Source of the DNA: Diphasiastrum complanatum
Lineage: Eukaryota; Streptophyta; Lycopodiopsida; Lycopodiales; Lycopodiaceae
Reading direction: 5' to 3'
Assembly (NCBI GenBank): GCA_029204225.1
Contig: CM055097.1
Span: 66,730,941-66,794,940 of the forward strand
DNA: 64,000 nucleotides
Positions 1-55,540 of this stretch are shown here, piece by piece; the first letter of the stretch is position 1, and every line of letters begins with the position of its first letter. The notes under the pieces are model-generated. The model worked only from the letters and a program-made list of their open reading frames with translations, was not told where the DNA came from and made no database searches. The position numbers and the translations under genes are program-made.

Positions 1-112
1 TCTCTCTTTGCGCTCTGTCCTTCCCCACATTGTCCGTCTCTCTCCTCCGTCTCTCTTATCTTCTTCACATCCACAAACTAATACACATGCGTGCAAGCAA
101 TCCAAATCTTCT

Positions 113-172
113 ATCTCTCTCGGATTCAGAAAAAGAGAGAGGTTTATCTCTCTCGGATTCAGAAAAAGAGAT
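113..172. repeat. Short tandem duplication (about 30-bp unit)
   Basis: Two nearly identical copies of a unit containing CTCTCTCGGATTCAG followed by AAAAAGAGA lie side by side. No coding signal was recognised in the first 443 bases. Confidence 0.7.
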
Positions 173-443
173 AGAGGTTGAAAGAACAATAGGTCACAAC
201 AATCTGGATGAACAACGATCTGCGTTTAATTTTACAAAATTCCTTGTGGCTGGTCTGTGCGTTCTTAGGTGGGTGTCCTCCCTCCTTTTGACATCAAAAT
301 AACAATCGTTTTATGAGTTTTCGGAATGACAGCAGCTTCCTCAGGATTGATAAGCGACAGTACGCGCTCCTATGTGAAATAAATCTCTTTTTTGCACAAA
401 CTCTCAAATTTTATAATACTCATCTAATGCTCATTGAAAATTA

Positions 444-1054
444 TTAAATTAACTGGTGGCACACACGGTTAAATCTAACATCGTCATAGAGCTCAAGCAC
501 TGATCCAGCGCTAGGATTCAACCGTGAAAGATTTTTTACAGCTTTGAAAGATTCACAATCCACTAGCAGCTTGCTGCGCCCGTCTTTCCAACTGATCAAT
601 TCTGCTGGGCTGCCAATGCTGGTAGAGTAGATATTCACTTGATCCACAAGCTGGCAGTACTTCTCGAGCGACTCTACAAACAGCTTGTAAGATCTTAGCT
701 GCCCTTTGACAGACACAACTCATTTGGTCAAAATTGTTTGCCTGATTCCTTGCACCACGGCCAGTTGTGCGTCGCAGGTGACTCCAACCAGTTCAACCCG
801 ATATGATTTTCTTTCTCGCACTCTATGTTTTCTTGAATCTGTGTTGCTCAAGGAGGTGGTAAAAGCTTTTTCCTCTCGTGATGTATGCAAGTCTTCATTC
901 GATCCATCACTTCCAATATCTTTTTCCTCTCGCGATGTATGCAGGCATCCAGCTCCTTTACCAACTCTTGATTCAGTCTTTCCATCTCCTCATCAACCAT
1001 CTCCGGGAAAGCCTTCGATAGAAATATGAATAATTCTTCAAGGCTACAATCCAA
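444..1054 (-). pseudogene. Unrecognised coding remnants (two open stretches)
   Basis: Two minus-strand open stretches, 848-1054 (68 codons) and 444-716 (90 codons), have protein-like composition. The first is acidic then basic and holds a repeated motif (CIHRERKK, then CIHHERKK), which mirrors a DNA duplication of about 66 bases. The second reads like a globular fragment (LRSYKLFVESLEKYC) and may be an exon, because the base run just before it looks like a 3' splice acceptor (AAAGGGCAG). I do not recognise a family. They could be exons of a decayed host gene or chance open frames. Confidence 0.25.
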
Positions 1055-1636
1055 ATGACTCTTGTCCCCTCAGAAATATCCCTCCGCTACTACCGCTAGC
1101 CGCTTCCCGACCGCGCTACTCCACTCTAGCCCGATCTGTCGCACCGCATAGTCACCAAAAAACACCTCCACGGATTTGTAGAAGCTTGCACTGCTCAATT
1201 CAATCAGATGTATCATATTATTCTCTTCTTACGATCACTTTTGACATTTTTACGAGACTGAAGCAGCAAATTCAGAGCACCTAATCTGAAGATTCCTGCT
1301 AATGTGGTGTAATGCTTCGGATTGAGCTTCATCTTCACAGAGTAACTTAACTCCAAGGACTCTGATATCTTATTTTGCAAATCTCAGTATTAACATGGGC
1401 GAGGCGATGCTGCTCATGAATGGCGTGATGCGCTTTAGCCTCTCCATTGAAATAGACGATCATAACAAATTTGGATATATGCAATCTTGAGCTGTCATAG
1501 CATGACGCGGATCTCAAAAGTAGAAAAAAAATTCATCTGTCTTAAGGCCATAGCAGTCCAACAAGCAAATCCTACATGTTCAAGATTTAATAGACCTTGT
1601 GATAGAGCTCAGACTTCAGTAGTAAATCGCTCCTTG

Positions 1637-1733
1637 CTGCTCTTCTTTTGCTTCCTTCAAATACAACATTGATTTCAGAAAATTGTCTGCTCTTCTTTTG
1701 CTTCCTTCAAATACAGCATTGATTTCAGAAGCC
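1637..1733. repeat. Tandem duplication, about 50-bp unit
   Basis: The unit beginning TGCTCTTCTTTTGCTTCCTT and ending ATTGATTTCAGAA occurs twice in tandem with one substitution visible in the core (ACAACATT versus ACAGCATT). Confidence 0.8.
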
Positions 1734-2849
1734 TGCTGTTGATGATGTAATTAAGTATTGTGGGGGCATCAACAAGCCTTCGGAATCCGGATGTTGCTCT
1801 CGGCCTCCTTTAGAGTTGAGAAACAGTGGATCTATTCTATTCATAGTGATTAGTGAGGAAGATGAGAAAAAAGTACATAAATTCAGTTCAGACAGCGATG
1901 ACGTTGTATGAGGGAGTTGAAAAATGAGAGAGAGGCACATTGTTGTTGTCAAGGCAGTGGGCACGTAACTTATGTACCGACCAACCATCATTTAGAATTA
2001 TTGTCAAATTCGACGTCAAGATCTGTGGGGTGAAAACTTATTTGATGAATCGAGAGTCCTCCAGCCCATTGGTGGGTGTTTTGACTCTTTATGGTCGTAG
2101 AAAAATACGGACATGACAGAAACTTGCTTGACAGCTACTTGAAAGAAACCCCTTGCATCAGTTAAATGGACAGGACCCTCTCCTCCTTGAAATCAATCTC
2201 TTTTTTTCCTACATTTTTGTTAACGTGGCAGATTGCACAACCTCTCACATTTTTCCTGACCTGGCAGATGCACAAACGCCTCACACTATAAAAAAAAAAA
2301 CTTTATCTTGGTGACATTGTGCTGAAGGAGAAGCCTGGTGTTGCAGCAGATGCGCCACGCCAAATGCTCACTTTGCTTAGACCCTCCATCCATGTTTTTT
2401 TTATCACAATTCTTTGTGTTTTTCTCACTGGGATCACAAAATACATGTAGAGTTCAAGTGCAGAGCCTTAGTCTCCCTCTCTCAAAATATAATCAAGTGC
2501 TTTCCGACTGAACTTAGGGATGGTGACCCCGACTTAATTTATAGTAGGGGTCCGTGGAGTAAGAGCGTAGGCCCCTGCCCTCCAAACTGCCGCCCTTTTG
2601 GCTCGAGGAAGCGAGAGCATTTCCTCATCAAGTATCCTTGAAAAACGAGGATTGCTTTGTGCAAGAATTATTTATGTTTTGAGACTGTTGAGCAATCTTC
2701 ATCAAAAGCAAGGACATAAAAATGAAAAAGGATGAGAATAAGTGTTCTTGCGGCAGGACGTAATAATAATGAACCATATGTGATCAAAGACTGTAAGACT
2801 TAACATTGCTTTAGGAAAATTGAAACGTATATCTATATATATAAAGAGA

Positions 2850-3385
2850 AACCTCCAAATTAAACATCACTGGTCAATATTAGGCACAAACTATCTGTTG
2901 ACAGTCCAGAATAGTATTGATGAAGAGAGAGAATTGTGTTTGATAAAAGTCCTTGGTTCCCTTACCGTCTACAAGTTGCATGTTATCATCCAACGTACCT
3001 CGCTCCGCCTCCCAAAAGAGATCCAACTAATTCTGCTTAACTTGAGCTGCCAGCCACAACTATATAGCTGAAACGATGAGAACATAGAACTTGGATGTAG
3101 GAAATGAGCAGGAAACGCAATATGAGAAACAAACCTGATCAAGGCATTCTTCTCCTGCCTTTCTTTCATTTGGATTAGTACTGAGTTATATCAATATGAC
3201 CTCAGCCAATAGCAAGCTGGCTGCACAGTCCAAATATCAAAGCTCGGATCGTCGCTCTTAGGAAGCCGTAGTGCCGACATAAACCTCTAGATTAAACAAC
3301 ACTAGACAATATCAGACACAAGCTATTTGTTGACAGTCCAGAGTAGTATTGATGAAGAGAGATGTTTGATAGGAGTCCTTGGTAT
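2850..3385. repeat. Pair of about 105-bp diverged direct repeats (2850-2955 and 3281-3385)
   Basis: Both copies start AACCTC, contain GTTGACAGTCCAGA and GTATTGATGAAGAGAGA, and end near GTCCTTGGT. They differ by scattered substitutions and one gap. The 325 bases between them are not recognised. The arrangement could be a segmental duplication or the ends of an old insertion, but no terminal dinucleotides or target duplication were found. Confidence 0.65.
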
Positions 3386-4499
3386 ACATAAAGCAAGTAC
3401 ATAGGTGAAAGATCATGGGAATATAATTAAAAGTTTCTATAACTTAAAAGAGCAGTTAAATGTATTGCTGGTTGAGAAACTAAGAGGAGAAACCTCTTAA
3501 TGGATAGCTAAAAAATATATATATATATATTGTGTACAAGGATAGACTTCACTTTTTCATTGCATACTCATAGCTAAAGTTTTTTCTTTGATATCTTGCA
3601 TATTGTGGTATGATTTATGAGGCACAAGTAAAAAAGTCTTACATATTCAATGGAAGACTTGTTAATAGAATTGGATTCTAAATTGGATACACCAAGAAGA
3701 CCTTTTGCAGCAGAAATGGCCCCACCCCAGAGTGGCTAAATCCAGTAATCAGGAGCCAGCAAGTTCTCATGTTACCACTCCTATTTAGCCTCATGTTCAT
3801 GACTTGAAGGTACATATGGCTGTTGATTGCTCTTCATGGTAATGAGCTAAACAATTGATTTCAAAGCAATTTGGCTTAGTATTTGCTCAAGCCCAACAAC
3901 TTCATTTTCGCACACACCAATGTTGTCTTTCACACAGGTTTGTGTCCATTCCTGTTGCTTATGATTGTTTCCCTTCCCACCATAGCCAAGACCTTCCATA
4001 ACTCTCCACGATTTGTGATCACCCACAAGCCTACAAAATTGGCTTCTACTTTGAAAGCTATAGTGGATTTCTTGCCAAATTTAGGGATAGCAACACATAA
4101 GAAACCTCGGCCCTAAAAATATCTCCTCTGACTGCTATCTCTACTCAAGTAGAGGACCTCAACTTTGTTAAGAAATTGAAGCCTAAACTTTTTCGGTTCA
4201 AGAGGTCCTATTCAGATCCTGACTTTTGGAAGCGTAGAGAGGATGTTTCCTCATCAAATCGTTCTCCTGCCATGATGAACTTATCTATTTGGTAAAATGC
4301 ACTGGCACACGTTGTGGATGAATCAGGTATAGATTTCTTCTTAAAAAAATCGCGAGGAGGAGGAAGAAGGGTTGTCAAAAACTCTTTGTAGAAAAGAATA
4401 GTAATTAAAGATTTGCGGGACTCTAAAGTGAAGAAAGAAAAAAGGTGAGTCAATTCAAGTCTTTTGAAAACTTCGACTTGACAGTACAAAGGGTCCTTC

Positions 4500-19725: not shown

Positions 19726-20426
19726 TGTTGAAATTTCACAATTCTAGCTTGACCAATTTTGGTCACATGCATTGTAATTGGCAAGATGGCCATGTAAATA
19801 GATGCCACACGTGCCAAATAGCATAGGATGCTTTCCCAAGACTTCATTCCTCATATTACATTGTGATAGCATCTTTGAAATGAGGCCAAAGTGTGCTTAG
19901 ATAAGCTAGAGAAATTCTAGGAGCTAAAAATAGCATGTTTTACATTGTTTTTGGATCTTGAGATCTTGACCCCATATTAAAGTGGATCCAATGACCTATT
20001 AGGTTAGATTTTAGGGTTAGGTTATGATAAGTACAGAGATGCCCTAAAATTTTCAGATCCAATCTTGAAATGTATAAATGTATGATGGGATCTCCATCCA
20101 AATATGAAAGAAAAATCGAGTTTTTCCACTTCTATCAACATTGTCTTTTGGTGGCGAGTTCTAGCTATTGGATGTGAGTGATTTTATGCATTAATTACTT
20201 GCTTTGGAAGGTACTGAAGTTGTTTACAAGTCTGAGAAGCTTGCTGCACTTTACTTTAGTGTATTTGATCAAATCTATGTGCCTATTGCGGAGTTAAATG
20301 CCAAATTAGCTAGTTTTGGTAACTAGTCTTGATTCTAGCTCATAGTTTGGATCTAGATCTTTGATTTGTGCATCCTCCATTACTTTTAAGATTGATTGGG
20401 ATTGAATTTTCTGTAAAATTTTGTCA
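19726..20426 (+). repeat. Element A left LTR
   Basis: Starts TGTTGAAATTTCACA and ends ATTTTGTCA. It contains CCACACGTGCC at about 19805-19815. It matches the right LTR along its whole length with scattered substitutions. Confidence 0.85.
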
Positions 20427-24044: not shown

Positions 24045-24740
24045 TATTGAAATTTCACAGTTCTAGCTTGACCAATTTTGGTCACATGCATTGTAATTGG
24101 CAAGATGGCCATGTAAATAGATGCCACACGTGCCAAATAGCATAGGATTATTTCCCAAGACTTCATTCCTCATATTGCATTGTGATAGCATCTTTGAAAG
24201 GTGGCCAAAGTGTACTTAGATAAGCTAGAAAAATTCTAGGAGCTAAAAATAGCATGTTTTACATTGTTTTTGGATCTTGAGATCTTGACCCCATATTAGG
24301 GTGGATCCAATGACCAGGTTAGATGTTAGGGTTAGGTTATAATAAGTACAGAGATGCCCTAAATCATTCAGATCCAAGCTTGAAATGTATAAATGTATGA
24401 TGGGATCTCCATCCAAATATGAAGAAAAATCAAGTTTTTCCACTTCTATCAACATTGTCTTTTGGTGGCGAGTTGTAGCTATTGGATGTGAATGATTTTA
24501 TACATTAATTACTTGCTTTGGAAGGTACTGAATTTGCTTAAAGGTCTGAGAAGCTTGCTGCACTTTACTTTAGTGTATTTGATCAAATCTATAGGCCTAT
24601 TGTGGAGTTAAATGCCAAATTAGCTAGTTTTGGTAACTTGTCTTGATTCTAGCTCATAGTTTGGATCTAGATATTTGATTTGTGCATCCTCCATAACTTT
24701 TAAGATTGATTGGGATTGAGTTTGCTATAAAATTTTGTCA
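24045..24740 (+). repeat. Element A right LTR
   Basis: Begins TATTGAAATTTCACA (the terminal TG has become TA) and ends ATTTTGTCA, followed by AGATC. It carries the same CCACACGTGCC motif, at 24124-24134. Confidence 0.85.
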
Positions 24741-41208: not shown

Positions 41209-42348
41209 TCATATTTCCATAGCAGAAATACTTTGAAAATGGAAACAGACGGGTTGTCTGCCAGCGGCAACCAAGTCCATGACGTGCTTTAGTTGATGCG
41301 TCTTGAAGAAGCAGTCAAGACACGCACGACTTGGAGATTGAGAATTCACCAGCATGTCTGGAGGAAAATGTTCCAATTTATTTGTTGTAACAGTGCTGCG
41401 TGAGTTCAAGGGCTCGTTGAAAAGCTTTGGCATCAGAAAAGGCTTCACGTCATCCAACGTGTGTCTTCTCAAGGACGGTGCGGGTTTTCTCCAGAAGCAA
41501 GTTTGACAGGCTACAGGTTTCTTAGTTTCGTAATAACAAAAAGTCCCTACCTGTTTCTCCCAGAGGATTCTTATAACCTCATCCCACTCATCCGATATGA
41601 CAAACACTTTATGCTGCTTTTCTGCTTTAAGCTGTAACGAATATTTATCCAGAATGTTTTTTGGACCCGGAGCGCTAAAGGCTACTACAGGAAGCAGGCG
41701 AAAGTCAGAAAGCGCTGCAGAGACCAAGATAGCCAAAGAAGCTCCCAGGCTATGGCCTGACAATAGCAACGGGGAGTCGGGATATGCATCCATGACTTTT
41801 CTGGTATAGTTAAGCGCCTGTGAGAAATAATCAAGAGTTTCATTGCCAAACTTAGAGCAATCTTTAGGGATAGGGAAAATGAAGTCTTCTTCCCCGAACA
41901 AGATGAGGTCCACACACACGTCCGCAATGCTGGCCGTTCCTCTGAATGCCAAAACCACTCTCTTACCCTCGCCTGTCTGTGCGGCTGCTCCTTCATGAAC
42001 CCTACCTTCTTCTGCTTCTGCTTGTTCTTCATAAACCACAGCGTGAGCGCCACCATGAAGCGGCGCAAGGGGCAAAACCTGCGATGCCATAGTCCATCCC
42101 TCAACGGCCTCCTGCTTGGGATAGCTATAGGCATTGGCAGAGATTTGAGCAAGCGGCCATGCGATTTGCCGAAACTCTGAGCCATCCAGACGATCCAAGG
42201 TGGTGATCCAGTCCCATCCAGCAGAAGGGAATGGCGAGACAAGCAGAAGCTGCTGCCAAAGGCATGAAGAAAGAAGAAGCAGCACTGACAGTGTCCATGT
42301 GGGAGGGAGCAAACAACGATCCATCACTACAGCCATAGCCATAGCCAT
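41209..42348 (-). CDS. Secreted class-3 (fungal-type) lipase, single exon
   Basis: 379 codons without interruption. A hydrophobic N-terminus (residues about 15-38, LSVLLLLSSCLWQQLLLV) looks like a signal peptide or anchor. FRGT at 135-138 is the oxyanion-side motif, and GHSLG at 198-202 the nucleophile elbow (Ser200). DEV at 256-258 and the His in RRHTLDD (296) are candidate Asp and His of the triad. A Cys cluster (C271, C281, C284) may form disulfides. Class-3 lipases hydrolyse acylglycerols or other acyl esters; the true substrate cannot be told. Three Met codons open the frame, and the first was taken. A TA tract lies 25-50 bases upstream. The only intact host-type gene here, lying alone among retroelement debris. 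Intron-less structure could reflect an old retrocopy. Confidence 0.85.
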   Translation of the reverse strand: MAMAMAVVMDRCLLPPTWTLSVLLLLSSCLWQQLLLVSPFPSAGWDWITTLDRLDGSEFRQIAWPLAQISANAYSYPKQEAVEGWTMASQVLPLAPLHGGAHAVVYEEQAEAEEGRVHEGAAAQTGEGKRVVLAFRGTASIADVCVDLILFGEEDFIFPIPKDCSKFGNETLDYFSQALNYTRKVMDAYPDSPLLLSGHSLGASLAILVSAALSDFRLLPVVAFSAPGPKNILDKYSLQLKAEKQHKVFVISDEWDEVIRILWEKQVGTFCYYETKKPVACQTCFWRKPAPSLRRHTLDDVKPFLMPKLFNEPLNSRSTVTTNKLEHFPPDMLVNSQSPSRACLDCFFKTHQLKHVMDLVAAGRQPVCFHFQSISAMEI

Positions 42349-43761: not shown

Positions 43762-44411
43762 GATATTGGAAAATTACAGAGGAAGAACTTCTGAAGAGCT
43801 AGCAAATAGTGGTATATTCTTCAAGGAGTCTAAGTACATTTCAGATATGTATCACACTTCCACATTTTGGAAGTGATGAATGGCTTGCACTTGATAGTAT
43901 AGTGTCAGAATTTATGTCCTCATATGTATTCGTTGATTTCTTTTCAAATGCAAATATTCGTAGAACACTAACATTATTTGTTTGTAAGGATGTGCCAGAT
44001 GACACTCTTTCAAATCTGATGGATGTGGGTTTGGATTGCAAGACAATTGGAGATATTGAATGTAGGATTAACAAATCTTCTATGATATTCTGTTATTGTA
44101 TTGGGAGACAAATGCTTAGTCTTACATTCAGATACCAGAGATGGAAACGAATAAGTGGGACCTGGATGCCACTAGATCAAGACCTTCAAATGGATGGCCA
44201 CACAAATAAAAAAGAAGTCCACATTTTCAATAATGAAGATATGCTAACTATGATTGAAGTGGAGGATCATTGGAGCTTAAGTTATATCAGACAAGAGCTG
44301 ATCTTAATGCACAATGAAATTCTACTTGAACACTTCAGTTTCATTATAAATGGAAAGCAAGAAACTATCTTTTCAGCTTGGGTATTTACAAATTTTCCAG
44401 CCTCATTTTGA
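43762..44411 (+). pseudogene. Cassette copy 1, gene X (5'-truncated)
   Basis: It aligns with gene X of copy 2 from GKLQ onward. The frame is broken at about 43790 and then open to 44411. Shared blocks include SDEW, DSIVSE, TLFVCKD (TLTLFVCKDVPDD here), NKSSMIF, MLSLTF, TWMPLDQD, GHTNKKE, MIEVEDHW and the C-terminal FSFIINGK. No known domain is recognised with confidence. The last block (helix, LxxxF, FIINGK strand) looks like a small beta-grasp-type fold, which is a guess. The 3' end overlaps the antisense end of gene Y copy 1 by about 130 bases. Confidence 0.6.
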
Positions 44412-44424
44412 ATACGTATATCAT

Positions 44425-46041
44425 CTGGCTTAGATGGCCCTAGAAGAGTCTTTGGTCCAGCTGTTGCCCTGGCCAATATGCTGAGGATGAGCTCCTGTCA
44501 AAACTTGTACACTTCGCCAGCTGTATAATCACGGAGGGCAAACTGCAATAAAATATATCATATATTAGATGAAGATTTATGATAAACACTTCATGAAAAA
44601 GAAAACTAAATAACTCACCTTCGAAATATCAACATCCTCCTGAATATTGTACCACTCAAAAAATAGCTTTGCATTGTAGAGTATACACTATGCACAACTA
44701 AATGAGTTGTTTTGTTGGGGAGTCTGCAACACTTTCAACTGATTAGATGAGTCATTTTGCCAGGGAGGAAGAAACTGACACTAAAAAAAGATCATAAGAA
44801 AAAATACGTAGGAAGTGTTCAATAATAACCTCAATGCTAACAATTTCACAATCCCCTACCATGGCATTATCTAATGGAAAGTATTTACAAACTGCTGGCA
44901 ACAACGAGTCAAAATCTTTGTGTGTATGACCGGCAGAATTCATTTTCACACAAAAAAGATTTATTACATTAATTATTGTTATATTTATAGAGACAATAGT
45001 CAATATCCAATGATCACTTCAGAAAGAAGCATTCCATCAGATATATGATACAGTGATTACAAGTAAACTTAAACATACAAACAAGTAGAGAAAAAGACAT
45101 ACTTGATATGATATGGCATCACCAACATCTTCATAGTTGGTGAGCATCCACCAAGGAGACAACGTGCAAAAGTGTCGGTGTCGTCCTTGATGGCCTCCAG
45201 AAAAAAATTGCTGAGAAAACAGACTTGTTTTATTGAATCCCTCGCAATATCAAATTGTAGGAGAGGGAGACCCGCCTCTATAACTTGTTTGCTAATCGAA
45301 GCCCTTCTATCCTTCATCTGAATACAATCAGAGATCCTAAAGTTAAGACTAAAACCAATTTCTTCTATTTTGAAGAGAATTGGCATGCCGATATTATCTA
45401 TTGCATCTGATATCTCTCTCTTAAATTTTAGATAATCTTCAAAATCCAAGTATATAGAGGGGAGAGAGGAGTAGTGGGAGGAGGGGGGAGAGTAGTAGTA
45501 TTCACAATAGAGGGGCTAATAGGAGGATTGTCCAAAATTTTTGTGGCTGAGTTGACCACAATATCTAAGGCCTTAGTATTTACAATGGCATCACCTCCAA
45601 AAGAGAAATGTTGGAGGTCCATGTGTCATACCTTTTTTGGTGCATCAGCAGAGATTTTCTTACCTCGTTTAGGGGCTTGTTGCTTGTGAGGCCTCTCTGT
45701 GAGAAGGTTAATCTTGTTAATGGTTCGTCCCTAGGAGTAGAGGGTTCACCCTTGTGAAGTCTATAGTATCTATCCTTAATTCTATACAAAATCTGAAAAT
45801 CGTTGGGCATTATGGTGACCCACAACAAAAATGAATCTTAAAAAAAAAGGCTCAAATAATCCTCTGTGGACTCATGCAAGCATTGTAGTGTTGCAGGTGT
45901 GAACTTAACAAAATTGTACAGATTATCTCTTGTGATCTCACAGACAGTTCTATAAAAAAGGGGCTCTTGGTATCAGGAGTTCAGTGGATCTCTGATATTT
46001 CTTAATTCCAGAGAGCCACATGCTCCTGTTACGCCTGGTCT
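44425..46041 (-). pseudogene. Cassette copy 1, gene Y: histone-H3-like fold plus C48-like region
   Basis: Read on the minus strand. 46041-45750 translates, with two frameshifts, to RPG, KYQRSTELLI, PFF, CEITRDN, FTPATLQCLHESTEDYLSL and VTIMPNDFQI, which follow the histone H3 fold in order (RPGT, KYQKSTELLI, PF, REI, FQSSA, LQE, VTIMPKDIQL). A basic linker (APKRGKK, then APKKV) follows. Then comes DYLKFKREI and KDRRASISKQVIEAGL, and, across an 86-base intron (45017-45102, GTATGT...AG), PYHIN joined to DHWILTIV, the Ulp1/C48 pattern around the active-site His. A second intron (44543-44829) precedes FALRDYTAGEVYKF. The expected catalytic Cys is not present. Stops show that it is inactive. Confidence 0.65.
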
Positions 46042-47020
46042 GCCATGGTGGATTTGTTGGAGTTAATCTTCACTCTGACTCACCCGAATTCGATTTTTAA
46101 GCACCAGTAAGTTAGTATTCTCTCTCTACAATGACATGTAGTCTTACTCGCATAAGTCGAACAACCTGTGTAATACATCGACTTGAAGCAGAAGCATGAT
46201 TGATTTCGTCGAAGTCCACTTCATCGACTTCACCGACTCGACTTCTAGACATTCTAACATCAATTCCATCGACATCGACATCTTCTCAAGGGCGAGCTAG
46301 TCGACTCGACTTGATCGATATCTTCAACTTTTACCATTCAAAATGGAGCTCTTCTTCTATCCTATTCGACACAGACCATGTCACAGTTCATTTCAATTCT
46401 TTGCAGTAATTGCATTACTTCACGCTTGTTGCCCACACAGTTTTTATAACTGTCGCATGTATATATACATAATGGCAACACACTATGAATACATGATGAT
46501 GTAAGAGAAAAGTGTCAATTAGTATAAGCGAGATTCAGAGTTCCTTTGTGAACTCCATTGTATCAGAATTATATGATTCCATAGGATTAGGGATTTTAGA
46601 GAGAATGAAAGTAATTCAAGAACTAGAGATAGTATTCAATCTGTAACTAGCTTAGTAAGATCACAACACATTGTGCGCTGTTACTGTGAATCATTCTCGG
46701 GCACAAGATCGTGATATGATAGTTGCATTCACAACAACTTAATTCAAATTTTGACTTTCTTATGTCTGTTCCACTATGAATGCATTCTGATAATTTCTCT
46801 CTCACTCACTGATATTCACTCCACAACTCACTTGGGATATCTAATCTCGAAGGAAGCATGCTTGTCTTAGACATGTAACTGTTTTGCTCTCTTCATGGTT
46901 GTCTTTGACACCTACAAGATATTCCTCCTGTCAATCTAAGTAATAGTTTGAATCTATTGTTTGGTAAAGATCCTGTTATAATTTGCATGTTGAGTTTTCT
47001 ATAATCATTTCGCATTTCAA

Positions 47021-47104
47021 GCCCAACAAGCTGGTATCAAAGCAATACAAATCCAATGAGTTGGTATCAGAACAGTAGAAACCCAACAAGTTGGTGTCAA
47101 AGCC
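47021..47104 (+). promoter_or_regulatory. Element E triple primer-binding-site array
   Basis: Three tandem primer-like sites occur at spacing of about 32 bases: CTGGTATCAAAGC (47031), TTGGTATCAGAAC (about 47062) and TTGGTGTCAAAGCC (about 47092). The first and third are preceded by CCCAACAAG and the middle one by CCAATGAG. This looks like amplification of the LTR-end/primer-site junction. Confidence 0.65.
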
Positions 47105-47163
47105 ATCGTTCCAAACAATTATTACTATTCAAGACTATTTTACAAGTTTTTAGATCATTCATC

Positions 47164-47695
47164 ATGGAAGGTACATCTTCAGAAATCCACTTGATTAATA
47201 ATTTCAATGGTGATGACTTCTACATGTGGAAATTCAAGATGAAGATGATACTCACTGAAAAAGAACTCTAGGGATACATCAACAGTTCAACAACCAAGCC
47301 GACTGAACTTGACATGCTGACCACCTGGAAAGCTAAGGATGGCAAAGCTCTTGCCATTGTATCTCTGAATCTTAAAGATTCACAAATAGTTCATGTAGCA
47401 AATTGTTCCAGCTCCAAAGAAGCATGAGAGAGACTTTCTGGTCTACATGAAACAACAGATGTGTGGACTCGTCTCTTTCGAGGCATTCAACCATTTCAAA
47501 GAATTCAAAATTTTTGTTGAGACACGATTGGTCAAAGACTCAAGACCCTGCATACAGACAGTGGTGGAGAGTTCCTGTCAGACGAAATGTCTGACTTCTT
47601 ATCATCATGCGGCATTTATCATCAATTCACCACCAACTACACACACCACAACAGAATGGAGTAGCAGAGAAGAAGAACCAAACAATACTTAATGT
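47164..47695 (+). pseudogene. Element E gag start fused to an integrase fragment
   Basis: MEGTSSEIHLINNFNGDDFY then WKFKMKMILTEKEL, followed by a stop, is a copia gag N-terminus. KALAIVSLNLKDSQIVHVAN continues it to about 47430. From about 47530 the reading is LHTDSGGEFLSDEMSDFL and GIYHQFTTNYTHHNRME, a decayed integrase core (TDNGGEF...YTPQQNG). Everything between, and all of RT, is deleted. Confidence 0.7.
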
Positions 47696-47770
47696 TACAC
47701 AATCAATGATGTCACATTTCAGGATCCTAGGAGTTAAGCTTAAGGGGGAGTGTTGGAGTTAATCTTCACT

Positions 47771-48494
47771 GTGTCAGAAAATTTATTTAAACTATATGAA
47801 GTTCTCGGGAATTATTAATAAATTCCAACTTCATAAAACAATTTCCACTCATAATTTCTTTTGCCCCTCTTCGTAATCTCTATGGTCACTGAAGAGATTG
47901 AAGTATTCCTAGTGACAGATTTAGAAATGAGAAAGAACGAGTCGGTTGTTCTAATAACACATTGCGGTGGCACATCCCAACTTCAAGGACATCCAGAAAC
48001 AAACTTTTTGTTCCATTTCAGTCTTTCCACCTTAGGCTTTTGTGTCATTTGACCATGTTTGTTTTCAAAAAAAAAATGACATCTTGGTCAAAAAAAAATT
48101 CCAAGAATCTCTGGACAGAACTGTCCAATTCTCGGTTGCCCATTGCAGTTAATAAACCGAATATAACTTTACAAAATTCCTCCAAGAATTCGGCCTAGCC
48201 ACAATTCTATGGGTTGCATCCTCTAGCACGAGGAGGTTGTACCCAAAGCAAAAAAACGACGAAATTCATTTTTTTTATTCTGGGACGTTGTGCAAGCTAA
48301 AGTAGCTCAATCAACGATTTATCCAGACATCAACAACTTCGGGGCTTTTAAACAACGGAAAAAATTTCTGGTTAGCCCAAGTTGTTTTGTATTAATGGCC
48401 TATAATTGTCTGAAATGATTTTGCATTTGGTTGATTCAGTACTTATAGCTTTTATCCAGTTCCATAACAATCTTACCGAAGGTTGGCATGTTAT
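47771..48494. other. No supported gene between element E and cassette copy 2
   Basis: Unrecognised sequence with two A-rich runs near 48070 and 48095. It may include flank or promoter of gene Y copy 2. Confidence 0.4.
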
Positions 48495-49998
48495 AAATTC
48501 AAGAGGTCCATCACTTTTAGATGATGTCGGATAACTAAAAATGATCTCGAACAGCTTGTTAGATTCACACCCTCTGCTCTCCAGTGCCTTCAAGAAGCTG
48601 CTGAGGACTATATGAGCGTTTCTTTTGAAGATTCATTTTTGCTTGCTATTCATTCCAAGAGAGTCACCATAATGCCTAAGGACTTTCAGTTACTGATGAG
48701 AATGAGGGAGAGATTTTGCAAGTTACACATATCTTAGTCTGTTGCTCCCGGACCTATTCCTCTAGATAGGACTGACCTTCCTACCATGGCCAAGCAACCT
48801 AGAAGCAGGCAGCCCCCAAGAGAGCTCCGAAGAAAGTAAGGAGGGTAGATACCACCGACTCTGCGAAGCCTAACCCAGATGCAATTGTAGATAATGTTGT
48901 AAATATAGCTACATCGATTTTGGATACCCCTGTAATTCCTGTAGATACTACACATCCACCTCTTCTTGCTCCTTCATCTTTATACATATATAAATTCTGA
49001 TGATTATCTAAAATTTGAGAAGGACATAGCCGATGTTGTAGATAGAATTGGTACTCTAGAGGAACTTGATTTTAGTATAATTTATTATAGAGTTCCTGAT
49101 TGTTTGGATCTCAAAGACAGAAGGGCTTCTATCAGTGATCATGTGATAGAGTCTGGGCTTACACTCTTGCAATATGACATTGCAAGATATTCGTCCAATG
49201 AGTTGTTGGTGCTGAGTAACTTTTTGCTTCAAGCCTTGAAGGAGAATAATGACACATTGTCATAGTGCCTGACTAGTGGATTCACACCAGCAACAAAGTA
49301 TCTGCTCATCCCTTATCATACCAAATAAGATATATTAAATGCTTCTTGTTGTTTTATGCTTTAACATTGGCATTGTCAATGGAAATAGTTCTCAGAATTG
49401 CAATTAAAAAAATTTCAATCTTATTTTGTAGTGACCATTGGAGTTTAAACCTGGTCTCTATTAAGAGATTTGTAGATAATATTGTTAAAGGTTTTTGTGT
49501 CAAGATGAACTCGGCTAGCAATACGCATAAGGATGTAGATATATACTTGCCATATTTAAGTAAATATATTCCAACAGATGTTCCCCATTTCATGGACTGG
49601 CAGATCGTTAGTTTGGAGGTAAGTTCTGTCTTTCTTAACAACATTTTGAAATCAGTATTCTAATGTATTTGTTTCATTCTCATTCATTCTGTTTCATAAT
49701 GCAAAGTTATTTTTTGAGTGGTTCAACCTTCAGGATGATGTTGATATTTCTAAGATAATTAATTCTATTTATTCTTATTTTTGGAATCATGATTAGTTTT
49801 CTATTTTGTTGATGTTTTTAGCCATTACTAATACATGAATGTTCTATCTTGCAGTTTACACTTCCTGAGTACACATCAAGCCAGGTGTACAGATTTAGTC
49901 AAGAAATTATCCTGAGCATACTGGCTAGGACAAGGCTACAGCCTCTTGTTGTTGATGATGGTGCAAAAGATGATGTAATTATACTAAATAAAGATTAG
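48495..49998 (+). pseudogene. Cassette copy 2, gene Y: histone-H3-like fold plus C48-like region
   Basis: 48495-48736 reads in one frame (one TGA) [52 protein letters not shown] then [11 protein letters not shown] and stop. [16 protein letters not shown] is the C-terminal signature of histone H3. The H3 tail is not seen. After shifts come a basic linker (APKRAPKKVRRV) and DAIVDNVVNIATSILD, then YLKFEKDIADVV and KDRRASISDHVIES. A 107-base intron (49325-49431; donor GT now AT) joins PYHTN to DHWSLNLVSI, the Ulp1/C48 active-His pattern. FCVKMNSA replaces the usual DS Asp with Asn. A second intron (49619-49854, GTAAGT...GCAG) leads to the last exon 49855-49998, where Ser-Gln stands in place of the catalytic Cys-Gly. 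Confidence 0.7.
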
Positions 49999-50183
49999 AA
50001 CAATACAGATAGCATAGAATAAAAATAGATTGCACATGTATAGAATTCATAGAAAAATATACATTATCATATCAGATGATACTCTATTTTATGAATTTGG
50101 GAGCACAAAATACATGTACTGATGCCCAACTTGGGTTTTCATTTATTGAATGAAAGAGTCTATACACAGATTTTCACTAAACT

Positions 50184-51566
50184 TTATTTGAAGCTATTGT
50201 TCTCCCACAATGGTGATTGTTGTAGGGTAGATCTTTGCAGCACGTTATCAGCTCCTATCTTTTTCGCATTTGTGACATGATAGATATTAGTGAATGCGCA
50301 GTCGTAAATTATGTCATTTTCAATTATTTTATTCTATTTGGAAGTGCAATAATCATAAAGTACTTACAAGTCTTCCGTTGATGATAAATCTAAAATATGT
50401 TGGTAGATTGGTTTGTAATAGCATGAGTTCTGTTCTGATAAAATCAAGCTTCCAATGCTCTTCCACCTCAACCATAGTCAGATATTCCTCATTGTAGATA
50501 ATGCTTATTTCCATTCGGTTTGTGTGACCATTTAGTTCAAAGTCTTGATCCAATGGTAGCCATGTACCTTCAATTTTCCTGTATCTCTAATAGCTAAATG
50601 TGAGACTGAGCATTTGTTTTTCGATATGATAACGAAAGATCATTGAAGACTTTTTAATCCTGTATTCTATGTCAGTATTTGTTTTACTATCCCAGTCTTG
50701 ATCCATGAGATCTAACAAACTCTCATCTGATAAATCCTTGCAAACAAATAAAGTTGGCGTCCTACGAACACTAGCACTCGAGAAAAAATAAACAAATATA
50801 TGTAATGAGATAAACCAACTTAGGTGAACAATGATCGAGCCAGTGCTTATCTTCATAGCATTTCTAATATCAATGAGTAGCTTGCATCTCAAGGATTCGG
50901 AAACAATACTGTCTGGAGTAGGCCACTCATCACTTTGAAAACTAGGCAATGGAATTGCTTCGAGCTTGCCAAAACCTCCATTTGTATTTGGCGTGTATAA
51001 AGATTCGTAAAAATAGATACCACAATCTGCAAGTTCCTTTGGACTTTTTCCTCTGTATTGTAACTTTCCGACATCAGACTGAATCACGTCCAATATTCCC
51101 GCAAGTGATTGTGTTGGCTCCCATTCACTTATGCATGATGGATATAAATCTGAAAGAAAAAAACATTGTTGAAACATTTAAATCATAATTAGAAGAGCAT
51201 CAATAAAGAAAATCACATATGATTGTTGTAGAGTGCATATTTTTTAATATACTTACAAGTAAATTTTCGATGATCATGAGGATTCATATCATGTACTTTG
51301 ATTTCTGAATGCATATATACATGTTGTACTAAAACTTCTGATATCGATTGACCTCCCGAGGTAGTCTTAAACTCCAAAATTTTTACTTTCCAATAAGATT
51401 TGTATGTCATTTTTGCTCTTTTCTTTTGTCGAAAATTGCCCTTTGATGATGGATGCAGCAATATCCATGAATTCTTCGTATATTTTGTTGGCTTTCGGTT
51501 ATCAACTTCATCTTTCTCATTGTAAAGAATCACAGACTCGATTGTAGATCTGGGTCTCCTTGCCAT
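50184..51566 (-). pseudogene. Cassette copy 2, gene X (three exons, one nonsense codon)
   Basis: ATG at 51566 (MARRPRSTIESV). Exon 1 is 51257-51566 with donor GTAAGT. A 107-base intron ends TTTCTTTCAG. Exon 2 is 51149-50368 and is open except for TAG at 50587-50589, where copy 1 has Gln. Exon 3 (50333-50184) continues in phase 0 as NKIIENDIIYDCAF to TAA, if a 34-base intron with GTAAGT...AATAG ends is accepted. Exon 1 is basic, with YWKVKILEF and VLVQHVYMHSEI, faintly like the strand pattern of chromatin BAH domains (weak guess). The C-terminal block has FIRTEL and YFRFIINGR. About 440 codons. Convergent with gene Y, 186 bases apart. Function unknown. Confidence 0.6.
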
Positions 51567-52045
51567 TGTTATTTTCAATGTAACTATACATATTGTATTT
51601 CTATAACTGTAACTAGTATAGTTAGAAAATTTCATTATACTAACCAGCATAGTCAAGTATATTTAACTTGAGGTATTGACGTCGGCAGATTAGCACGTGT
51701 GGGACAGGAAGAAGAAACCAATGGGATAAGTCCATGCTGCCCGGACAAAATTTCAAAGTTTTCTATATTGCATTTTTATTTCTCAGTTAATTTGAACTAC
51801 GTTACGTAGATTTCAAATCTGTGCATTTTGATTGGGCCTGGTGATGGTCGAAACTAAAGAAAAATAAATAAAAGTATCTTTAAAAAGGGTCTTATTTTAT
51901 TTTGGAACTCCTCTAATGTTGAACAAGGACTGATGAGCTTTAGGCGAGGAAAACACCCGGTATGAATTGTGAGAAATGTAAAAAGGTTATCTATGTTAGT
52001 TATAGGGGCCTTATACTCTTTTGTGTCAAGCATCTTGTTCTAGAA
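51567..52045. other. No supported gene; 5' flank of gene X copy 2
   Basis: A probable 5' flank with no clear TATA box. Only short frames are seen. Confidence 0.4.
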
Positions 52046-53394: not shown

Positions 53395-54023
53395 ATGGCT
53401 TCAATGAGTTCATGCTTGTTGGAACCAAGTGAGAGATTGTCCACTTCAAACTATTCAATATGGAAGTTGAGAATGGAGTCCATCTTTATCCTTCAAGATG
53501 TGATGAACATTGTTCTTGGCCTTGAAGAAGAACCTCAATTTCTTCAAGAGAAGAAGAGAGCTAGGATGGCTCTCCACTACATTAAGATGAATGTCTCTAA
53601 TGAGATATTGGAGATAGGTACTTGCACAACAGCCAAAGAAGCTTGGGATTGTCTCAAGACTATCTATGAGGCTAAGAACACCTCTAGGCTCCTCACTCTT
53701 AGAAATCAAATCTTTCAAAGTATCCAAAAGAGTGACGAGAGTGCATCTAGTTATGTTTTGAGAGTCAAGGATATTCATAGAGATCTTACATGCATTGGTG
53801 ATTCTATCAATCAAAATGAGCTAGTCCAAGTCATTCTCAATTGCTTGAAAAGTGATTTTGATAACCTTGTCCAATCCTATGCCATTAAGGAGGAACTACC
53901 GAGCTTGGAGGCCCTTCAAAGTGTGCTTATTTCCAAAGAATCAAGACAAGAGTACAAACTCTTGAGGGAAAGCTCTATTTGTCAAGGACAAGCACAAAGG
54001 GAGGAGCAAGAACCAAGAGTAAG
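53395..54023 (+). pseudogene. Element G copia-type gag
   Basis: MASMSSCLLEPSERLSTSNY then SIWKLRMESI, ALHYIKMNVSNEIL, YEAKNTSRLLTLRNQ and ELVQVILNCL match the UBN2-type gag of elements A, B and I residue by residue over about 190 codons. The frame is open. The basic linker starts near 53980, and then the sequence switches to gypsy RT before any zinc knuckle. Confidence 0.85.
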
Positions 54024-54485
54024 TCACCTTTTGCCTCTCCTATGTTACTTGTTAAGAAGATAGATGGAACGTTCAGGATGTGTATCGACTATCGAGCCCT
54101 TAACAAAGTTACCATAAAAAATAGATATCCTACTCCAAGGGTAGATGACTTGTTGGATGCTTTGAAAGGAGCCAGTGTTTTTTCAGAAATAGATCTATGT
54201 TCGAGATACCATCAAATCAAGGTCAAAGAGGAGGATCAGCATAAAACAACTTTTCGAACTGATAGGGGATATTCTGAATTCAAAGTTATGTCTTTTGGAT
54301 TAACTAATGCTCCTGCTACTTTTCAAGCTCTCATAAATAAGATCTTTGAGCCTTATTTTTACTTGTTTGTGTTGGTATTCTTTGATGACATCCTGATATA
54401 TAGTAGAAACATGGAAGAACATGCGAAATTTGAATTTGATCTTAAGTATTCTTCGAGAATACAAGTTGTTTGCAAAAGTCTGTGA
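54024..54485 (+). pseudogene. Element G Ty3/gypsy-type reverse transcriptase (partial)
   Basis: [59 protein letters not shown]-like [21 protein letters not shown] and the catalytic FFDDILIYS (54378-54404) are textbook gypsy RT, a family unrelated in sequence to copia RT at this level. It is open for about 154 codons in a different frame from gag and ends without the connection or RNase H domain. The usual RSGYHQ is CSRYHQ here. Confidence 0.85.
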
Positions 54486-54789
54486 ATTTGCTCAAGATGA
54501 GGTGGAATAGTTGAGGCACATTGTGCTAATTGGGTAAAAGACATCCAAGCAGAGTATATAGAGGATTCAAATTTAAAAGAGATTTAGGAGGAATCACAAA
54601 ACTCCAATTATGTTATTCATCCATTATAGGAGGCCAGAACAAATATTGTTGTAAGATAATTCTATAATTGTGCTTGCTCCTAAATCCAAGTTTATTAGAA
54701 AAGTATTATATGAGCTATACTCATCTCCAAGTGTTGGACAATGGAATGTTGAAGACATATCAAACAATCAAGAAGCTATTCAAATGGGT

Positions 54790-55540
54790 TGGTATGAAGA
54801 AGACTAAATATACATATTTGCAGGAATATCCATTGTCAAGTTAATAAGATGGAACATGTCAAGCAACCAGGTTTATTGCATCCGCTATCTATTCATACAC
54901 AATATTGGACAAGTATTAGCATGGATTTTATACCTTCCTTGCTAACAACGTCTGGGGAATATGATAATATTTGTGTGGTGGTGGATCAGCTTACAAAATA
55001 TGCACATTTTCTACCTTATAAAACTACTGACAGTGCAACCCAAATATCACAAATATTGAAGAACATCTTCAAATTACATGGGATATCAAAGGAGATAGTG
55101 AGTGATAGAGACAACAGATTTATTTCCACTTTCTGGAGGGTTTTAATGGACAAGTTGGGCACTAAAATGTGCTTAAGTACATCATTTTATCTGAAAATTG
55201 ATGGATAGACGGAAAGGGTCAACCGGTGGTTGGAGTGCTATTTGCGACACTTTGTTTTAGACCACCAGACAAGGTGGATAGATTGGTTGTACCACACATG
55301 TCAATTGGCATGACACTTTACTTTGCATGATATGGCCATGAATCATTACAACGTATTAGTGTAGATTTGTCAGAGGTTGTAGTTCCAGCAGTTGTGGACT
55401 ATGTTCAGCACATGAATGAATATTTTAAAAGCTATTCATTAGCATATTAAAATATCACAGATGCGAATGAAGCAGTACGTCGATCTGAAAGGACTTTTCA
55501 TGACTTTGTTAAAGGAGATTTTGGGTATTTAAGATTACAA
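54790..55540 (+). pseudogene. Element G Ty3/gypsy-type integrase
   Basis: Decayed zinc region remnants come first, then ISMDFIPSL (first Asp), VVDQLTKYAHFLPYK, SKEIVSDRDNRFISTFW (second Asp) and, after a TAG at 55207-55209, TERVNRWLECYLR (catalytic Glu). This is the D,D-35-E core of gypsy integrase. Further stops follow, and a C-terminal tail (KGDFGYLRLQP, usually GDxVxLRLQPY) is recognisable at about 55510-55540. Confidence 0.75.

Follow-up and report, generated by a model that had tools for sequence, protein, structure and literature searches.

The two convergent pairs of genes X and Y in a 64,000-nucleotide stretch of the Diphasiastrum complanatum genome (contig CM055097.1; this whole stretch is called the window below) are best explained as truncated copies of a very abundant cut-and-paste-type DNA transposon that carries four genes, X, Y, Z, and T. 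The explanation as a whole, which includes T as a presumed transposase and Y as a putative fusion of a histone H3 fold with a C48-type protease domain, is given a probability of roughly 0.87. The initial annotation had proposed a two-gene cassette that moves or is kept together, and this holds in part: X and Y do move and stay together, but they are not a unit of their own and form the left third of a 9.4-kb transposon with terminal inverted repeats (TIRs).

Structure of the complete element

A genome search with exon 2 of the window gene X2 scored 141 copies among 13,246 first-look candidates, and 18 stretches of 10 kb, each reaching ~6 kb into the element, were fetched around X copies. In 17 of the 18, the element starts at one sharp left border, CATTAGAGGAGTTCTCAATATCAAAAAG, which carries a few substitutions per copy and beyond which the flanks differ; the remaining copy (L033) is truncated and begins later. 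A 35-nt form of the border has 544 + 540 exact occurrences in the genome, while the reversed pattern, used as a control, has 0. This border is a 35-bp TIR with its inverted partner 9.4 kb off. An end-to-end copy was assembled from two adjoining pieces, L044 and L049 (C1:48368841-48378291, 9,451 bp). Its TIRs are inverted at 35/35 bases (CATTAG...CTAATG) and enclose the genes in the order X+, Y-, Z+, T-. The copy is decayed, with stops or frame changes in both T and Y. The window terminus and 16 of the 17 fetched ones read CATTAG, the exception being CATTAA in L041. Z is present in at least nine of the 18 fetched copies and T in at least three, to which L044 is added through L049.

X and Z are accessory proteins without a recognized domain. 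No Pfam family scored above the cut-off for X, Z, or T, and X did not match any sequence in the PDB. The profile and structure searches left X, which had been annotated as a gene of unknown identity, without a name, and the five relatives returned by a protein search are all unnamed as well.

Several copies depart from this architecture. L014, L015, L020, and L034 carry internal deletions that bring X or Z beside a piece of the T gene, and in this they resemble the deletion derivatives of other TIR transposons. A 376-bp nonautonomous relative (CATTCGAGGAG...CTTCTCTAATG) is nested inside the X-Y element of L045 (L045:5710-6086, oriented X+). A diverged Y, with 60% identity to the main family in its H3 region, is found at L037:2416-3397 (oriented), and a diverged X (~55%) at L045:1545-2705 (oriented), pointing to several old subfamilies in the genome.

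The presumed transposase T

T presumably mobilizes the element: it would cleave the TIRs after binding them and insert the element, apparently without a target site duplication (TSD). A structure model of a T relative predicts a RAG1/Transib-like fold for the family that resembles the RAG1 core. Among 47 T homologs, 36 of which were aligned for the residue counts, D375 and D473 are invariant. D473 is followed by C493 (33/35), C496 (34/35), H533 (35/35), and H538 (36/36), and candidates for the third acidic residue are E572 (invariant) and E/D545 (35/35). Neither Transposase_21 nor any other transposase family of Pfam was matched by 10 T homologs at E up to 1; with 36 homologs and E up to 10, none of the 25 families listed, out of 53, is a transposase. 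T did not match any PDB sequence, and a T profile (A3) searched against the PDB at E up to 10 did not match RAG1 or Transib chains and gave one weak coiled-coil match (E 0.052).

The closest framework is the CMCT clade, which, in the portion of Kojima 2025 (PMC12730594) available to us, comprises EnSpm/CACTA, Mirage, Chapaev, Transib, Plavaka, ESTA, and Lanisha. As far as that portion describes the clade, the element shares with it the C(2)C and H(4)H motifs that follow the transposase's second conserved Asp, the 5′-CA..TG-3′ termini with TIRs, and the RAG1/Transib-like predicted fold. It differs in that T homologs have no Pfam transposase match, in that a histone H3 fold is carried, and in that the cleanest insertion lacks a TSD, in contrast to 2-5 bp in the clade. 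By resemblance, the element is a CMCT-type DNA transposon and probably a member of the clade. Judged by its terminus, CATTAG and not CACTA, and by the Pfam tests made, it is not an EnSpm/CACTA element. Transib and RAG1 are only 10-14% identical to T. In the T homolog P0004, 36 residues lie between C496 and H533, in contrast to about 200 in the matching spacing of RAG1, and Transib/RAG transposition leaves a 5-bp TSD, in contrast to none in the clean case described below.

The alternative that survives best is that the transposon belongs to the named Lanisha lineage, with the cargo alone being new, and we consider this a serious contender at a little less than even odds. In the available portion of Kojima 2025 (PMC12730594), Lanisha is listed as a CMCT member that has C(2)C and H(3-4)H motifs, and Maumus, McDaniel and Carey 2020 is cited. 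The one named T relative, a fern protein, counts in the same direction. Maumus, McDaniel, and Carey are said to work on a moss.

Target site

The cleanest insertion is an 8.1-kb TIR pair (C1:20721697-20729787). Its joined flanks give 34 matches in the genome, consisting of its own two flanks and 32 unoccupied repeats, all 32 of which cross the junction. Two of these empty sites were read directly and show GTTGTAT/TGAA as contiguous sequence (the slash marks the junction) with no duplication, although just ~2-10 bases match on the left of the junction, the repeat apparently starting at this point. At the 376-bp relative nested in L045, the flanking bases are adjacent in sister copies, again with no duplication. 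The initial annotation had raised the question of target duplications, and the answer is 0 bp at the clean empty site and mixed at the other TIR pairs: L044 has TCA on both sides, L039 possibly has CT on both sides, and the remaining two pairs have no matching base and one matching base, respectively. A fixed 3-bp TSD, first read from L044, was dropped on comparison with the other four TIR pairs. The element likely inserts without a TSD, but the matter is not settled.

Two unoccupied copies of an unrelated repeat in the window (19877-20277 and 24196-24591) correspond to the left flank of L034 and could represent empty sites. Element sequence was not found in the further stretch fetched for L034.

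A histone H3 fold joined to a C48 domain

Judged by its sequence, Y is a histone H3 fold with a noncanonical N-terminal tail that is followed by a C48/Ulp1-type domain with putative protease activity. The first exon is open for 331 codons in L046. In its N-terminal part it matches PF00125 (E 1.2e-24, 87.4 bits versus a cut-off of 26.4) as well as solved H3 chains (E ~1e-20), and even the decayed Y1 of the window matches PF00125 with E 1.5e-9, scored with its frames joined and X placed at the stop. The rest of the first exon together with three further exons (taken from L031) matches Peptidase_C48 (PF02902, E 1.9e-10, 41.4 bits versus a cut-off of 20.7), and the C48 part of L046 weakly matches solved Ulp1 chains (E 0.002-0.004). 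Of the C48 active-site residues, the His is retained in 31/31, the Gln in 34/34, and the Cys in 33/35 aligned rows; the sets L001-L030 and L031-L048 overlap, and many rows represent the same copy fetched twice. Two introns had been annotated in Y, at PYHxN/DHW and SLE/F (slashes mark the intron positions). Both positions read as GT-AG junctions, but the second conceals an additional short exon, the better copies reading SLE, then SPQQNDSFSCGWYTLY..., then FTLLEYTSSQ.

The canonical H3 tail (ARTKQTARKS with K4/K9/K27) is not present in the Y of L046, whose frame ahead of the histone fold reads MPMDRRKQTRRNFFSPG... from a start codon that was inferred. In its H3 core, Y shows 50-61% identity with both H3 and fission-yeast CENH3: L046 shares 58% with fission-yeast cnp1 and 53% with plant H3 (the latter over 88 residues), and the diverged L037 shares 50% and 52%, respectively. 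Loop 1 is one residue longer than in H3. The two best database matches of Y are plant records with two H3 copies each.

Role of Y and alternative readings

From its domains, the histone fold of Y would be expected to bind H4, nucleosomes, or chaperones at the element, and the protease would release SUMO from proteins nearby. As the most likely role, we tentatively propose that the H3 part sets the fusion in or on chromatin while the protease strips SUMO, and that Y thereby opposes silencing of the element, although the odds lie somewhat against this role. The fuller version of the proposal is more doubtful. According to it, Y would be a tail-less (no K4/K9/K27) H3 variant-SUMO protease that is placed at or close to copies of the element itself, giving chromatin that cannot be marked and from which SUMO-dependent silencing factors are stripped, and the element would represent a RAG1-fold, TSD-less lineage of seedless plants.

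Ulp1/C48-like genes are carried by plant transposons such as Kaonashi-type MULEs and some CACTA elements, which thus share a C48 domain in a DNA transposon with the present element. To our knowledge, the C48 domain is not joined to a histone fold there, and the transposase is different. Chromatin modifiers in DNA transposons include TET/JBP in fungi and SET methyltransferases in the HarbingerS and MuDR elements of oomycetes, and plant Vandal elements carry anti-silencing factors (both as given or cited in the available portion of PMC12730594). As far as these systems are described there, they resemble the present element in encoding a chromatin-acting protein beside the transposase and differ from it in their cargo, which here consists of a core histone fold and a C48 domain in one gene. 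A transposon-borne histone was not found in the literature searched, including the available portions of PMC12730594 and PMC9033089, nor was a histone-protease cargo found described. Since transposons that encode editors of chromatin marks are known, a core histone fold combined with a SUMO-type protease would constitute a new anti-silencing strategy, and the abundance of copies makes such a transposon testable. The predicted RAG1-fold transposase family would widen the known kin of the V(D)J recombinase, and insertion without a TSD in this fold would, if true, be mechanistically informative.

Several points weigh against the overall account. The fold of T was modeled on a database relative that is 45% identical over 83% of the joined T query and does not come from the source genome, and in the end-to-end copy T is broken. 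The structure of X, predicted from six sequences, reached a predicted local distance difference test score (pLDDT) of 38 and was discarded as uninformative. The flanking bases repeated at L044, and possibly at L039, fit poorly with a TSD-less insertion. Where the C48 Asp is expected, Y reads VKMNS, with Asn in 32/32 rows, the alignment being uncertain in this part. The H3-C48 fusion was not found in the protein database, all 28 matches of Y being made through the histone part; this absence is weak evidence, as the database is probably poor in spliced genes of such hosts. Finally, the ratios of nonsynonymous to synonymous substitution (dN/dS) are 0.34 for X (the window copy plus 17 fetched ones, with L045 dropped) and 0.19, 0.35, and 0.42 for the H3 region (6 copies), the middle (8), and the His exon (11) of Y, but they were obtained from gap-free copies picked for protein similarity to X, which biases the values down.

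The main alternative to an anti-silencing role of Y is tethering of the transposition complex to nucleosomes. Here, the H3 fold would dock the complex on H4 or nucleosomes, where SUMO on host factors would be processed by the C48 domain. The occurrence of a histone fold and a C48 domain in one gene, separate from the presumed transposase, is counted for such targeting, and the lack of an obvious shared target among the flanks of five TIR pairs is counted against it; on balance, we regard it as unlikely. It is less probable still that the element picked up its H3 and C48 parts passively from the host and that they have no function in it. Plant transposons capture host sequences frequently, and the protease Asp is apparently replaced, but the H3-C48 arrangement recurs in two diverged subfamilies in the window, the H3 part is found in a third diverged Y (L037), dN/dS in the selected copies is 0.19-0.42, and the active-site His, Gln, and Cys are retained in nearly all rows.

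Pairing of X and Y across the genome

The convergent arrangement of X and Y, from which the annotated cassette was deduced, recurs outside the window. At least one opposite-strand Y exon lies behind X in 17 of the 18 fetched copies. All 25 X-Y pairs within 5 kb in the genome tables are convergent. This count took in 113 of 141 X rows and 55 of 121 Y rows, and some of the pairs are likely the same locus repeated on an unplaced contig. The spacing between X and Y is 1.07-1.11 kb in 24 of the pairs and 0.23 kb in one. Of the 121 copies of the Y first exon scored in the genome, 23 are free of stops. The stops in decayed copies are mostly TAG, and L031, L035, L036, and L042 share one at the same codon (LFF-stop-DSF), as could result from decay of a single base position, from a stop already present in a source copy, or from shared ancestry.

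An independent two-gene mobile cassette with termini of its own would account for the order and orientation of X and Y being kept across copies, and eight of the 18 fetched stretches hold X and Y exons with no Z or T exon. This reading is nevertheless very improbable: the left border of the supposed cassette is the TIR of the larger element, its inverted partner lies 9.4 kb away past Z and T, and the right-hand alignment ends vary from copy to copy, as truncations or insertions would give. That an ordinary pair of host genes was duplicated locally in inverted orientation, as the two diverged inverted X-Y copies that adjoin in the window might suggest, is ruled out for practical purposes by copy number: the copies run into the hundreds and are dispersed, with sharp termini and flanks that differ.

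The copies in the window and their neighbors

Two convergent pairs are present in the window as annotated, X1+/Y1- at ~43775-46058 and Y2+/X2- at 48531-51918, and the homology of X and Y between them holds exon by exon (tblastx against the full copy and exon map). Inverted repeats join the pairs, the four longest being 67-117 nt with 70-85% identity. Chance resemblance is excluded because the two fragments can be aligned to one multi-copy element. The annotation had also considered that the pairs might be two halves of one larger element; both are instead left halves, from two diverged subfamilies. X2/Y2 would have broken off past element position 3605, and the sister-subfamily copy X1/Y1 would have come to adjoin a Copia-like remnant. 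Both are broken, and the look of an inverted duplication is due to their head-to-head placement.

The X2/Y2 fragment (48531-51918, minus strand) covers element positions 1-3605 of 9451 and ends before genes Z and T (blastn against L044+L049, 82-93%). Its left TIR (CATTAGAGGAGTTCC..., 51884-51918, minus strand) is matched at either end of the full copy; given this border at 51918, the fragment therefore starts at a transposon end. On the minus strand, tblastn places X2 exon 1 (MARRPRSTIES...) at 51264-51566 (87% to the L031 exon) and exon 2, with one in-frame stop (TAG), at 50368-51147 (93%). On the plus strand, the degraded H3-like region of Y2 spans 48468-48725 (tblastn, 66% to the H3 region of L046), with blastn homology to the element beginning at 48531. 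It is followed by the middle of the C48-like region at 48981-49325 (tblastn, 81%) and the exon with the catalytic-His motif DHWSL at 49430-49618 (tblastn). The remnant of the Cys exon (49674-49754) has lost its Gln/Cys part: tblastn spans exon residues 9-35 only, the Cys is not aligned as Cys, and ~77 bp with the catalytic-Cys segment are missing in a gap between two blastn blocks. The last exon (FTLPEYTSSQ...) was read from the sequence at 49855-49998.

The diverged X1/Y1 fragment (43775-46058, plus strand) corresponds to element positions ~974-3725 (blastn 65-78% and tblastx against the full copy), and both of its genes are truncated and frame-changed. The remnant of X1 exon 2 lies at 43851-44357 on the plus strand (tblastn, 54% to X exon 2 of L031). 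Y1 lies on the minus strand, with the H3-like region that matches PF00125 at 45718-46018 (one frame change and one stop; also found by tblastn), the middle of the C48-like region at 45102-45452 (tblastn, 57%), the exon with the DHW motif at 44830-45018 (48%), and the broken Cys exon at 44619-44723 (71%). The latter reads TPQQNNSFSCA followed by a stop, so that CA-stop stands at the Cys site in contrast to CGW in most other copies.

The two fragments face each other head-to-head, as annotated, across element E (46055-47773, plus strand), an internally deleted retrotransposon remnant with long terminal repeats (LTRs) that adjoins X1/Y1 and that we take to be Copia-like. It is delimited by a 23-nt LTR-start repeat at 46055 and 47751 (96%), and primer-site-like and purine-tract-like motifs as well as a gag-like open reading frame can be read in it. 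Further LTR retrotransposon remnants, with gag-like, reverse-transcriptase-like, and integrase-like frames by reading, lie at 53395-55208. On the other side, a single open frame on the minus strand (41209-42348) contains a GHSLGAS motif; it is presumably a class 3 lipase and perhaps the nearest host gene.

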